A DNA stretch of 64,000 nt from Ectobius pallidus (Eukaryota; Arthropoda; Insecta; Blattodea; Ectobiidae): positions 150,119,042 to 150,183,041 of the forward strand of contig CAXKWD010000002.1 of assembly GCA_964059195.1 (NCBI GenBank), read 5' to 3'. Shown here piece by piece: positions 56,280-62,978 of this stretch; within the stretch, counting starts at the first letter, position 1, and each line of letters begins with the position of its first letter. A model generated the notes under the pieces. The model was not told the origin of the DNA, ran no database searches, and saw only the letters and a program-made list of their open reading frames with translations. A program made the translations under genes and the position numbers.

Positions 56280-58253
56280 ATCCTTTCCACTATACACTAT
56301 TAAAACCTAATATAAAACCATGCCACTGATTTATAATAGTGGTTAAAACAATAAGTTGTAAAACCAAACACTACGATTCGGCCTGGCCCCCAGGCCTTTC
56401 TCAAGTGCACTGACTGCATAAATCATAAACATACCGTCATTTCCATGTAGCATGGTCGTTCCCATGCTGTTGTTGATGTTGATCATTGCTGCCTTCACCG
56501 TTTTCTGCCTCCCGCTTTCTGAACGTGTTATCCTTGTAATGCTCATTACTTGGGATATCAAAATTATTATCATAAATTACTCTTGGACAGGGAAATCTTG
56601 GAACTTCATACGTCCTATTTAAGTTCTTAATCACACCAATCCACTGTTCCCTTAAGTCTCCTTCATAATTCTTTAAGCAATTATCCCTCATGCAAATGAT
56701 ATTCATGGCTTCACTAATTTTTCTCCTTACGCGGTTGCCTTCTATCTTCACCACTTCTAACTTGCCCATCTTAGGTCCTTTAATCATATGTTGGCTCAAC
56801 CCTGTACAACATTTTTTGCTTTTTATATCCCTTTCATGCTCACATGCACTTACACTGAATGTTCTGCCTTTCCCCTACATATATCCCTTCACAGTCACTG
56901 CAAGAAATAACGTAAATTCCCGGTTTTTCCATCTTTACCCTGTCTTTGGTCCTACCAAATATTTATGTTGCGTAAATAAGTTCCCAATGGTCTTTATAAG
57001 CCTGCATGCCGGCAAGATGCAATACGCAAGACTAAGTGCTCAAGACCAAGTGTTAAAGTTCAAGTGTACATGACGCTCAAAATCACAAACAACTTCACTA
57101 GCGCGGAGTAGCTCGCCGTGCTAGATAAGAGGAGCTAAACCCTTCTTAGGAGGCCTTTGCCCTACATGGGACACGATAGGCTTATTTTATATTATTAATT
57201 TATATTATGCCGGTGTCAGGTCGTATTTTCTTAGTACCTTGCAAATGCCTTCAGTTAAACCAGGAATATAATTAACAGACACATACCTTCTATTTAAGTT
57301 CTGTGTTTTTTCTCCACCTCTATCACTACCCTCTCCTTTACCCATTTCTACGCTCCTCCATATCCTCTGGATCTTGTTTTCTTTGTATCCATTTATAATG
57401 GCAAGTTTTATAATTTCATTCTTTTCTTCCTTCAAATCCCTACTGTTATTGCACAACCTGTGAGCACGAGTAACAAAGTTGTGCCATAAGTTGTTGTTAA
57501 TAGTGTGATGACAGGAAGATCGTTTGTGTATATAAAACTCACCTTGGTTGGGTTTCCTGTATACTCCCACCTTAATTCCAGTTCCCTCCATTTTTATGCA
57601 CAAATCCAGAAAATTCAGGCATTTGTTTACCAATTTTTCATATGTAAATTTTAATCTGGGGTGACAATCATTGAAATCCACAGCCATTTCCTCTGCCTTC
57701 TCCCCCTTGTGATTACAAGAATGTTGTCTACATACCTCATGTATCATTAGAGTATTTGTCAATAATTGGATTCTCAATGTAATGCATAAAAATGTTGGCT
57801 ACAAACCCTAAAATTGGGTTACCCATACTGAGGCCTTCCTTCTGTTGGTATAACACTCCATTAATTTTAAAAAAGATTATGGTTAGTACAGACCTCGTAC
57901 CACCTACCATAGTATTAGTTGGCTAAAATTCTGTCGATACCTTTGTTGTTAGCCATTGAATTAGGTATTCACCCACTAGTTCTCTCGGTATGCTAGGGTA
58001 TAGGTTGTACACATCCAAACTGAATATGGAGAGCTCGCCTTCCACCTTTATTTTATCCAAAACAGTTTTTGCCTCGTAGGAATTATCTATCGATCACTTA
58101 GTATTTTTCTATATGTCCGTTAAACGTTCTACTAATAATTTAGCCAACTTATACATGGGGTGGTTGTACATGGGAACTAGGGGTCTCATTGGAACCCACT
58201 CTTTATGGGTTTTTGGCATTCCAAAACATACTAGTCCAGTCAAAACAAGGTTT
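56280..58253 (-). pseudogene. Penelope-like element, copy 1
   Basis: Reading downward from 58250: CFGMPKTHKEWVPMRPLVP, then SIFSLDVYNLYPSIPRELV (RT motif A), YQQKEGLSMGNPILGFVANI (motif B), a damaged motif C and LKFTYEKLVNKCLNFLDLC. The RT C-terminal part ends near 57205 with ICKVLRKYDLTPA. A foreign or diverged segment of about 130-250 bp follows, then a GIY-YIG endonuclease remnant at 56437-56930 (SQHMIK, KISEAMNIICMRDNCLKNYE). Stops and frameshifts occur throughout. The far end matches copy 2 to about 56300. It is cut at 58253 by the inverted-repeat unit. Confidence 0.8.
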
Positions 58254-60679
58254 AACCTCCTAAAAAATCCGAAAGTTTTGAAACTTTGCACACTTATTTA
58301 AAGGTACCTAGGGATGAATATACCAAAAGTCCTCATGAATATGAGGCGAGTTCTAGCGGCAATTAGCGAAAACAGGGTACTTTTTTAGTTTTTTGTTAAT
58401 ACCTCGAGAACCGTTGGTCGGAGGTAATTGAATTGAAGATTATTAAATTTGCAACAACAAAAAATTATATACATTTTTCATGTATTCCTAATGGTTACCG
58501 AGTTATAGGGCGCTAAAGGATAGCGTTTTTTGAAAAACCACACTAGCGCAGTACAATATGGCAATTTCTAATAATATGTGAGAATAGTTTACCAATTTTT
58601 TTGGATACCAAGGATGATTGAGGAAATAAACTTCACACTTTGTATAAAAAGGAAGACATGATGTATATTAAACAATGAAATACATGAACAAAAAAAATGC
58701 TGAGGATATTCCAAGGAAAATTGTGTACAGAAAAATCAATCAACTCTTGATCGCAATCTGCTCATCTTGGTCAGCTTCTGAACTTGCTGCCTGAAACACA
58801 GTAATAAGAGGTAACTATGCATGATATGATGATGTGAGAGAACCATTATACAGATAAGAACATGTATGTAAAAGAAAGTAGGTAAGCGAGCAGACGTATG
58901 AACATGACGACTGATTTATGTATACTATTGCAAGGTAAATGAATAACAAAAAAATACAAATGTGCAATCTCACCTGATTTCTGGTTAAGCGTCCAGCCAG
59001 CACAGTGTTTTGATCTTCATGTACCAATGTTCAGTGTATGTTCTTTGCAATGAATGGTCTGTTTCTTCAAGGTTTATGACATCGGGATCATCAGGGTCAT
59101 CAAAGTCTTCTTCGAGGGTGGAAGTAACACCATTCAAGCATTCGCCATGGCAAATGTGACAAATGCTTGTACACATTATTCCCGACTTTCAACAGCCACA
59201 TCTGTTCCCACATCCACCTGTACATTTGCAACAAATGAGGTTGAGGACAGCTTCAGGTGCTGCTGGATTCTCTGTTGTCACAGGGATCAGCCAATCGCTT
59301 TCCAACTTCCAACCCCACTGAACAGGAGGAAGTTCATTCCCAAGCCAAAATTGAATTTGGTGGTACTCTCAAAATGCATGTTGTCTTGCTGCTCCTTTTA
59401 TGGGCGGCAGAGCAGAAAGGTCAGGTTTAGCATTGGATACAGATTTGGCGATAGCATTGTAGCGGTGCATGCTAAGAGAGGTTTGCTTCCTGGGCGCATT
59501 GTACAATGCCAGGAATATTTTGTTTCCAGCAGCAGCTACAGCCTCACGGGATGAACGTGGGCTGTTAAATATATCAGCAATACCTTGCAGTACAGCTTGC
59601 TTCTTGAACAATTTGAAACAGGAAAGTTTCCCATTTCGATATGCAGCCGAAGTCATATTGCATCCGCTGAACGCATGCACAAGAAGTATGCTGTCCTTCA
59701 TTCCCAAAGTTTTCAATTGCTGTGCCATGGCGTGGTTTCACAAATAATATGTTTTGTTCAGTCAGAGTTAAGACCACGAGGAGAATAATAAGATCTACAT
59801 CTTCACCGACTATTGCTACTTTGTCACAAGTGAAGGATTTCACGAGTGCTATTCGGACAATCAATGTGTCAGCAACACTGGGTGCTTGTTCTGTTTCAAC
59901 TCCATGACTGGTAAGGGCAGTTATGAGGAATGAAATTAGTCTAGATTTATTCTTTTCGTTAGAAAGAAAATCATCCTGTTTGACTGTTACTATTCTCTCC
60001 AAAGTTTATGTCAACTGATCTTTGTTTTGTACCTTCGGCTCTGTTCAGCTCTCTTTGTACTAGATGGGGCGGCTGAATAAACATCAAACACCACCGTGCA
60101 GCTGTTGCCACCATAATGCTTGAGAACATAGGCTACATAACTATGGTTGAAATGGTTGAGATTGTTGGCTAATCTTTGGGCCACACCACCTTGTGTAATA
60201 GTAAGCCTTCATCCAAAACAATGTCAAAGTAGTCTAGGTTTATTTCTTCTTTTAATGGAGTAAAGACATCGTACAAGGTAGATTTCTTGGTCTTCCGCAT
60301 TCCTGCCTCCTCAAATAAAGACAATGGTGAAATAGTACGGTAGGTACCTACTTTAATTTGCACCATCGTGCACTCCTCAACGGTTTTAGAAAAAATGCTA
60401 TCTTTTAGCGCCCTATAACTCGGTAAACATTAGGAATACAAGAAAACTGTACATAATCATTTTTGTTGCAAATTTAATAAGCTTTAATTATGTATATAGT
60501 CAACTTTTACCTCAGACCAACGGTTCTCGAGATATTAACGAAAAACAAAAAAGTGCCCTGTTTTCGCTAATTGCCGCTAGAGCTTGCCTCATATTCTTGA
60601 GGACTTTTGGTATATTCATCCCTAGGTACCTTTAAATAAGTGTGCAAAGTTTCAAAACTTTCGGATTTTTTAGGAGGTT
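58254..60679 (-). mobile_element. Inverted-repeat unit with a PIN/XPG-like nuclease gene (candidate undescribed transposon)
   Basis: Two arms of about 290 bp (58254-58540 and 60390-60679) are inverted and mostly identical. The outer ends read AACCTCCTAAAAAATCCGAA, and shared inner words include GAGTTATAGGGCGCTAAA. The gene at 58985-60366 fits exactly between the arms. The left end begins in TTAA (58252-58255), the right in TTGG, so a TTAA target is possible but not proven. No other duplication was seen. The unit interrupts a Penelope-like element. Confidence 0.65.
58985..60366 (-). pseudogene. PIN/XPG-like nuclease with Cys-rich C-terminus, decayed
   Basis: ATG at 60366, 24 bp inside the right arm, opens a frame with LFEEAGMRKTKKSTLYD and FDIVLDEGLLLHKVVWPKD. 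After a stop the same protein goes on with GGNSCTVVFDVYSAAPSSTK, then, frame-shifted, FLSNEKNKSRLISFL, ADTLIVRIAL and VAIVGEDVDLIILL. Another shift near 59735 leads to LLVHAFSGCNMTSAAYRNGK. TGA at 59369 and 59207 interrupt the last part, which has WLGNELPPVQWGWKLES and two Cys clusters (CCKCTGGCGNRCGC, CTSICHICHGEC). The spaced acidic residues and the GC(D/N)..S element resemble PIN/FEN1/XPG nucleases, and the tail resembles CXC-type zinc motifs. Similar uncharacterised proteins are widespread in invertebrates. Academ-type transposons are reported to encode an XPG nuclease; a link is inference. Confidence 0.65.
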
Positions 60680-61587
60680 GGGTCATTTTTTGAGGTTTTT
60701 TGACCGACTATATGGGTAGTTCAGTTTGAGTATTCGTAATCAATTTCTTCGTATATTCACTCTTCACAGAAGGAAGATACGAGGGTTGGTCAAGAAGTAA
60801 AGTCTCCAACACTCTAGCCCAAGCTCACAACGTTGGATGACAAAGTTGGCACCACTGCCATGTCCCATTATCTCCCCTCTTTCAAACAAGCCATTGTTGC
60901 ATCCGCTAACCTTTTAGTGTCCGAGATAGAGCTGTTTGAAATGGATCTCCTGATTTCTGTCCCCACCAAGTCAATAGTGAGGTCTCCAACACTCTAGCCC
61001 AAGCTCACAATGTTGGACGAGAGAGTTGGCCCCACTGCCATGTCCCGTTATCTCCCCTCTTTCAAACGAGCCATTGCTGCAGTCGCTGAACCTTTTAGTG
61101 TCCGAGGTAGAGCTGTTTGAAATGGATCTCCCGATTTCCGTCCCTGCCAAGTGCGGCCTCCACGAACCCACCTCGCACAAACCTTATGGAACATCAATTT
61201 GTCACTCAAAATGGTCTGTATGGAAACTTTAGAAATGTCACAAAGCAATAAACAAAGTTCACGAGTAGTGACACCTCGATCTTATCACAACAATTCATAG
61301 ACTTTTGCCACAATCTCATCTGTGACAGCTGTTGTTGGTCTCGCACTTTGCTCATCATCATGAATATTTGTCCAGCCCTGTTTAAACTCACAAACCCATT
61401 TACACACATATTTTATGTCCATATATCCCTCTCCATAAACTTCGCAGAGCTGTCTGTGAATTTCAATCGGCGGAACTTTTTTTGCAGTAAGAAACTGTAT
61501 GACTTCGCGGAGGCCGCACTTGGCGGGGACGGAAATCGGGAGATCCATTTCAAACAGCTCTATCTCGGACACTAAAAGGTTTAGCGG
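60680..61587. mobile_element. Fold-back mariner composite
   Basis: TA then CGAGGGTTGGTCAAGAAGTA at 60779 is a mariner-type end. Two tandem plus-strand copies of its 5' region follow (about 60802-60967 and 60979-61160), each reading ELFEMDL near its end. The inverted minus-strand copy at 61285-61587 carries the transposase N-terminus. The right end is lost at the join with Penelope copy 2. Confidence 0.65.
61285..61575 (-). pseudogene. Mariner transposase N-terminal fragment
   Basis: The frame reads MDLPISVPAKCGLREVIQFL, then IEIHRQLCEVYGEGYMD, VCKWVCEFKQG and DEQSARPTTAVTDEIV. This is the helix-turn-helix region of a mariner transposase. It ends before the catalytic domain, so it could bind DNA but not cut it. 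The family differs from those at 26842 and 36003. The same start (ELFEMDLPISVPAKCGL) is encoded again on the plus strand near 61106-61160. Confidence 0.7.
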
Positions 61588-62978
61588 GCCTACCGAGAGA
61601 ACTAGCGGGTGAATACCAAATCCAATGGCTAACAACAAAAGGTATCGACAGAATTGTAGCCAACGAATACTATAGGTGGTACGAGGTCTGTACTAACCAT
61701 AATGTTTTTCAATTTAATGGAGTGGTATACCAACAGAAGGAAGGCCTCTCAGTATGGGTAACACGATTTCAGGGTTTGTAGCCAACATTTTTATGCATTA
61801 CATTGAGAATTCAATTATCGACAAATACTCTAATGATATGGTTACCTGCATGACGTATGTAGACAACATTTTTGCAATCACAAGGGGGGAAAAGGCAGAG
61901 GAAATGGCTGTGGATTTCAATGATTGTCACCCCAGATTAAAATTTACATATGAAAAGTCGGTAAACAAGTGCTTGAATTTTCTGGATTTGTGCATAAAAA
62001 TGGAGGGAACTGGAATTAAGGTGGGAGTATACAGGAAGCCCAACCAAGGTGAGATTTATATACACAAAAGATCTTCTCATCATCACACTATTAAAAACAA
62101 CATATGGTGCAACTTTGTTATTCGTGCTCACAGGTTGTGCAATAACAATAGGGATTTGAAGGAAGAAAAGAACAAAATTATAAAACTTGTCATTATAAAT
62201 GGATACAAAGAAAACAAGATTCAGAGGATATGGAGCATAGAAATGGGTAAAGGAGAGGGTAGTGATAGAGGTGGAGAAAAAACACAGAACTTGGTAGGAC
62301 CAAAGACAGGGTAAAGATGGAAAAACCGGGAATTTACGTTATTTCTTGCAGTGACAGTGAAGGGATATATAAAGGGGAAACAGGCAGAACATTTAGTGTA
62401 AGACTACTACGTGAGCATGAAAGGGATATAAAAAACAAACAAAAATGTTGTACAGGGTTGAGCCAACATATGATTAAAGAAGGACATAAGATGGGCAAGT
62501 TAGAAGTGGTGAAGATAGAAGGCAACCGCGTATGGAGAAAAATTAGTGAAGCCATGAATATCATTTGCATGAGGGATAATTGCTTAAATAATTATGAGGG
62601 AGACTTAGGGAAACAGTGGATTAGTGTGATTAAGAACTTAAATAGGACATATGAAGTTCCAAGATTCCCTGTCCAAAAGTAATTTATGATAGTAATTTTG
62701 ATATCCCAAGTGAATGGATTAATGAGCATTACAAGGATAACACGTTCAGAAAGACGGAGGCAGAAAACGATGAAGGCAGCAACGATAAACATCAACAACA
62801 GCGTGGGAACAACCACGCTACATAGAAACGACGGATTTGTTTATGATTTATGCAGTCAGTGCACTTGAGAATGGCCTGGGGGCAGGCTGAAACGTAGTGT
62901 TTGATTTTACAACTTATTGTTTTATCCACTATTATAGATCAGTGACATTGTTTTATATTAGGTTTTAATATAGAACAC
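61588..62978 (+). pseudogene. Penelope-like element, copy 2 (RT part)
   Basis: It matches copy 1 in opposite orientation. The first part is frame-broken (VYQQKEGLS). 61754-62314 is open with MGNTISGFVANIFMHYIENS (motif B) and TYVDNIFAITRGEKAEEM, where the usual YVDD of motif C reads YVDN. It runs through LKFTYEKSVNKCLNFLDLCI to TQNLVGPKTG. Relative to copy 1 it lacks the segment between TQNL and VGPKTG. The N-terminal RT part is missing. The 3' flank to about 62978 is shared with copy 1. Confidence 0.8.
62317..62682 (+). CDS. GIY-YIG endonuclease domain of Penelope-like copy 2
   Basis: ATG opens 121 codons directly after the stop of the RT frame. It carries PGIYVISCSDSEGIYKGETG, where the second motif is Y-K-G rather than Y-I-G. 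The Arg/His helix RLLREHERDI, a Cys pair around CCTGLSQHMIKEGHKMGK, and KISEAMNIICMRDN with the metal-binding Glu follow. In Penelope elements this domain nicks the target for reverse transcription. Here it is separated from RT by TAA, so it is a leftover frame even though the domain is unbroken. Copy 1 carries a more damaged version. Confidence 0.75.
   Translation: MEKPGIYVISCSDSEGIYKGETGRTFSVRLLREHERDIKNKQKCCTGLSQHMIKEGHKMGKLEVVKIEGNRVWRKISEAMNIICMRDNCLNNYEGDLGKQWISVIKNLNRTYEVPRFPVQK

Follow-up and report, generated by a model that had tools for sequence, protein, structure and literature searches.

Within the 64,000-nucleotide stretch of Ectobius pallidus DNA considered here (the window; positions 150,119,042 to 150,183,041 of contig CAXKWD010000002.1), a 2479-bp element at 58232-60710 combines two termini (the right one degenerate), two long inverted arms and, between the arms on the minus strand, the remains of a gene for an XPG/FEN1-type nuclease. 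The initial annotation had described inverted repeats of about 290 bp around such a gene and given the unit as 58254-60679. The repeats were confirmed, at 286 and 298 bp with 88% identity across 300 columns (no inverted match exceeded 50 columns when the element was shuffled 50 times), but the span was too short, the element extending 22 bp further left and 31 bp further right.

The termini and the empty target site

The extra sequence was recognized in sister copies (L002-L028) taken together with their flanks, which run beyond the arms through a 22-bp left and a ~31-bp right segment, alike only over the terminal 12-14 bp, and terminate at both ends in the 12-bp TAGTCCAGTCAA. The window copy therefore spans 58232-60710, limits that were set by the sister copies together with an empty site, and its right end is degenerate. 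The search for further copies that had been proposed revealed a multi-copy transposon: in the 2.12-Gb genome (410 contigs) the 26-bp left end has 249 matches at no more than one mismatch, whereas its reversed control has none.

The window copy sits in the reverse-transcriptase region of a retroelement that we take to be Penelope-like, recognized by eye from open reading frames (ORFs) resembling reverse transcriptase and GIY-YIG. A 181-base query made by joining the two flanks matched 19 places from position 1 to 157 or 158 at 85-90% identity, besides shorter and more distant matches. In the five empty sites that were fetched, the sequence is CATACGGG (L065-L068) or CACACGGG (L064), compared with CATAC, element, TATGGG in the window, which makes TA part of the element and TAC/TAT a 3-bp duplication of the target. 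Among 42 distinct two-ended copies, the duplication outside the TA is 3 bp long in 37, 4 bp in three and absent in two, while mismatched left and right flanks, used as a control, agreed over 3 bp in just 84 of 1,722 pairs. These 42 were drawn from 63 loci (L001-L063), after six duplicate records of copies already counted had been dropped, together with 15 loci, the window copy among them, that lacked two recognizable ends. The alignment of copies thus supplied all that it had been suggested for: exact ends, duplications and an empty site. Flanks do differ from copy to copy, which the initial annotation had listed as refuting mobility; since 40 of the 42 each have a 3-4-bp duplication of their own, however, differing flanks are what transposition predicts.

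Table 1. Features of the element in the window
Feature	Positions	Strand	Basis
Left target-site duplication, TAC	58229-58231		Empty host-element copies: CATACGGG in 4/5, CACACGGG in 1/5
Entire element, 2479 bp, very probably a non-autonomous AcademX-type transposon	58232-60710		Sister-copy ends, empty site
Left terminus TAGTCCAGTCAA and asymmetric spacer	58232-58253	+	Sister copies; 26-bp left end genome-wide
Left long inverted arm, 286 bp	58254-58539	+	88% over 300 columns with right arm
Nuclease C-terminal part and Cys-rich tail, P0028 residues 285-550, in-frame stops	58928-59725	-	tblastn of P0028
Nuclease middle part, P0028 residues 187-276, different frame	59724-59993	-	P0028 comparison
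Nuclease N-terminal part, P0028 residues 74-186, frame-broken	59989-60327	-	P0028 comparison
Right long inverted arm, 298 bp	60382-60679	-	Pairs with left arm
Right spacer and degenerate terminus; TTTTTTGACTGGACTA or near it in sister copies	60680-60710	-	Sister copies
Right target-site duplication, TAT, one base different from TAC	60711-60713		Empty site

Two inverted Penelope-like copies flank the region (window 56298-58291 and 61588-62970), one of them being the insertion target, and they form inverted pairs of 351, 190 and 115 nt as well as shorter ones. A mariner-like transposase fragment, also recognized by eye, adjoins a tandem duplication of 180 bp that has an inverted partner as well (61285-61638 on the minus strand, 60796-61152 and 61504-61586 for the whole group).

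A broken nuclease gene that continued to spread

The reference for the window gene was P0028, the intact 549-aa ORF that lies between the arms of sister copy L026, a 2845-bp nuclease-only form. By homology with P0028 the gene does occupy the minus strand between the arms, as had been proposed, but it is not intact: its pieces lie in three frames with in-frame stops, two of them lying before the Cys-rich tail is complete, and P0028 residues 1-73 have no counterpart in the window copy. The ATG at 60366, to which the initial annotation had drawn attention as lying 24 bp inside an arm, opens 13 residues without a P0028 counterpart, and its position is without meaning. The PIN/FEN1-like acidic core that had been proposed holds for the protein family; the window copy, however, has Asn in place of Asp in its GCD motif and has lost one of the Asp residues of DAD. 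The transposase half carried by the longer relatives described below is absent from this copy. Pfam and PDB sequence searches with the window pieces gave nothing above threshold, a match to MMPL (E 0.12) being the one sub-threshold Pfam result.

Of 337 candidate places in the genome, 40 were scored, and the best 25 match the window copy at 89-100% identity, each over 2,299 or more of the 2,426 bases. Relative to L026, one stop is common to 29 of 33 window-type copies and four frame-breaking indels to 15, and a stop ahead of the Cys tail is common to the window copy and L011. Since 13 of the 15 copies with the four indels have private 3-4-bp duplications at separate sites, they multiplied after the gene broke, and protein supplied by other elements was therefore needed. 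The window type thus arose by deletion, and the lesions common to most of its copies predate its spread.

Full-length relatives and their protein

The unit had been viewed as an undescribed, self-mobile element with a single gene, a view not supported by its full-length relatives, which carry a DDE-type transposase domain in addition to the nuclease. A genome protein search with a nuclease-half query (90 matches, 84 scored of 11,423 candidates) returned 30 loci, some of them copies already among the earlier loci. Long inverted arms lie on both sides of the gene at 26 of these and on one side at L055; none were found within 1.5 kb of the gene at L030, L031 and L056. The same gene without arms, which had been named as grounds for rejecting the unit, was thus seen within that distance at three loci, but the arms of L030 lie further out. 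This is evident in L059, a longer extract around the L030 locus, which is a 7286-bp element with such ends and arms and with frames of 1218 aa and, overlapping it, 309 aa with cysteine pairs. They include two families whose inner arms are apparently unrelated and whose outer 10-12 bp are in common; blastn of L026 against L059, which belong to different arm families, gave no match.

L062 and L063 are identical across 6377 bp although they lie on different chromosomes (C2 and C12), and each has its own duplication (TCA and TAT, respectively). Their ends are TAGCCCAGTCAA, their arms are ~640 bp long, and their frames encode 1303 aa and 145 aa, the latter holding the Cys-rich tail. The frame change in L059 and in L062/L063 may represent either an intron or damage to the gene. 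The L062/L063 family is full-length and very young, and a third copy with the same score is found ~317 kb from L063 (C12:7581108-7584248). In the arm family of L059 there are ~3.5-kb nuclease-only derivatives in which the L059 stretch from ~5.4-6.3 kb to 8.6-8.8 kb is missing, with several different breakpoints; two relatives of this type still have long frames (600 and 624 aa), and that the derivatives found all keep the nuclease half partly reflects the nuclease-half query. Among copies at least 86% identical to P0029, a longer protein used as query, part of the nuclease half is present in 30/30 and any of residues 1-588 in 6/30, a count made by eye (38 scored of 11,672 candidates) that best-match scoring may bias. 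A further relative, in which the frames are 546 aa long, scores identically at C2:112569187, C6:101009445 and C10:29849270 and is probably another derivative that moved recently.

The full-length protein begins with cysteine pairs, followed by a DDE-type RNase H core, an XPG/FEN1/EXO1-like nuclease and a Cys-rich, CXC-like tail, so that the initial description of a PIN/XPG-like nuclease ending in Cys-rich sequence fits the family well. In predicted models the transposase core has RNase H topology, its nearest structures are DDE transposases, and the P element (6pe2) may be the closest in fold. The D, D and E residues are invariant in 43/43 aligned sequences, and the nuclease has both the predicted fold and the acidic active-site motifs of the XPG/FEN1 family. 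The alignments (A1, A2 and A3) comprised 42, 29 and 45 of 120 listed proteins, hand-picked for length and spread, with P0029 added to A1 and the L062 frame to A2. DUF6589 was the only Pfam entry for the protein, and when 30 members were compared with Pfam, the 19 families that they matched (E up to 1) included no helicase. A sequence search of P0029 against PDB and an NCBIfam search with three proteins gave no result, and none of 55 pattern matches in viral contigs was confirmed.

Among the matches listed from public protein sets, relatives are common in insects and are labelled Tesmin/TSO1-like CXC or are uncharacterized or unnamed. One close relative (P0037, 62% over 89%) carries the name of a rust fungus, Austropuccinia psidii, in its database entry, which may reflect either contamination or horizontal transfer, and an entry from the hagfish Myxine glutinosa (P0016, 31%) is more distantly related to the nuclease half. 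A protein family common in insects is explained in this way: it represents the transposase-nuclease encoded by a large group of transposons, and gene sets should mask it as such. The main interest lies in this unnamed family now being explained, in the clean empty site and in full-length copies that have moved recently. Because some of these are identical and each has its own duplication, the genome is suited to seeking live AcademX transposition and the role of a FEN1-like nuclease in it.

An AcademX-type derivative and its alternatives

Based on these observations, 58232-60710 is very probably an inactive, non-autonomous deletion derivative of an AcademX-type DNA transposon that was carried in trans, the enzyme that mobilized the window copy probably coming from its fuller relatives. 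The DDE core of such a relative would bind the 12-bp ends, with the arms perhaps helping, excise the element and join it over a 3-bp (sometimes 4-bp) staggered target cut, the fill-in of which would produce the target duplication. Presumably the nuclease acts at excision or joining, on an end that is branched or carries a flap. The window type would have lost its transposase half first and its nuclease frame next, while still being mobilized in trans. Derivatives with different breakpoints keep the nuclease-CXC half, some with open 549-624-aa frames, and on these grounds the loss of the transposase half could be non-random and a free nuclease-CXC protein could act as trans helper or regulator of a still-moving AcademX family, an idea we regard as unlikely.

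Several points speak for alternatives to this assignment. Academ was identified by description, Pfam offers DUF6589 and nothing else, and the public proteins are unnamed or called Tesmin/TSO1-like CXC, all of which would suit a new superfamily with the same DDE-nuclease-CXC protein and 3-4-bp duplications and no homology to Academ. We consider this improbable, as the duplication length, transposase and nuclease all match the published AcademX description (PMC10045372), relatives are common in insects, and Academ appears in the literature on insect transposable elements. The intact nuclease ORF of L026 and the 600- and 624-aa frames of the two 3.5-kb-type relatives likewise speak for a single-gene element mobilized by its own nuclease, as first envisaged. 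This is very improbable in view of the stop and the four indels spread through the window-type copies, and of families with unrelated arms (L026 and L059) carrying the same ends as the transposase-bearing full-length elements; L059, L062 and the shared lesions led us to drop it. That sister-copy ends begin with TA, resembling a TA duplication, might indicate a passenger unit moved at TA sites by a Tc1/mariner-type transposase. It is scarcely credible here, since TA is missing from the empty site and a duplication of 3 or 4 bp lies outside it in 40/42 copies, and a Tc1/mariner-like TA duplication was accordingly dropped.

The nuclease of AcademX is XPG-like. The AcademX-type assignment rests on features, as the duplication length (40/42 copies and the window empty site) and the joining of a DDE transposase with a nuclease in full-length relatives agree with the published description, which made Academ, one of the leads first suggested, a good one. 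In that description (PMC10045372), AcademX has 3- or 4-bp and AcademH 9- or 10-bp duplications, a difference tied to the encoded nuclease or helicase. The window copy differs from AcademX in being without the transposase half, and the CXC tail, TAGTCCAGTCAA ends and 290-650-bp arms belong to a family matched to AcademX by description. AcademH, although of the same superfamily, differs in its helicase and longer duplications, neither of which was observed in this family. KolobokP (PMC9587614), another eukaryotic transposon with a transposase, an additional nuclease and long terminal repeats, has a His-Me nuclease downstream of the transposase, and its repeats are direct. KDZ elements were considered for their CxC-type cysteines and set aside, no feature linking them to this family. 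The P element has 8-bp target duplications, rather than the 3-4 bp seen here, and is not known to carry an XPG nuclease. EXO1, FEN1 and XPG differ in that the nuclease here is fused to a transposase and a Cys-rich tail within a transposon, and Tc1/mariner in that the TA here belongs to the element and not to its target duplication. Nothing observed demands a new kind of element.
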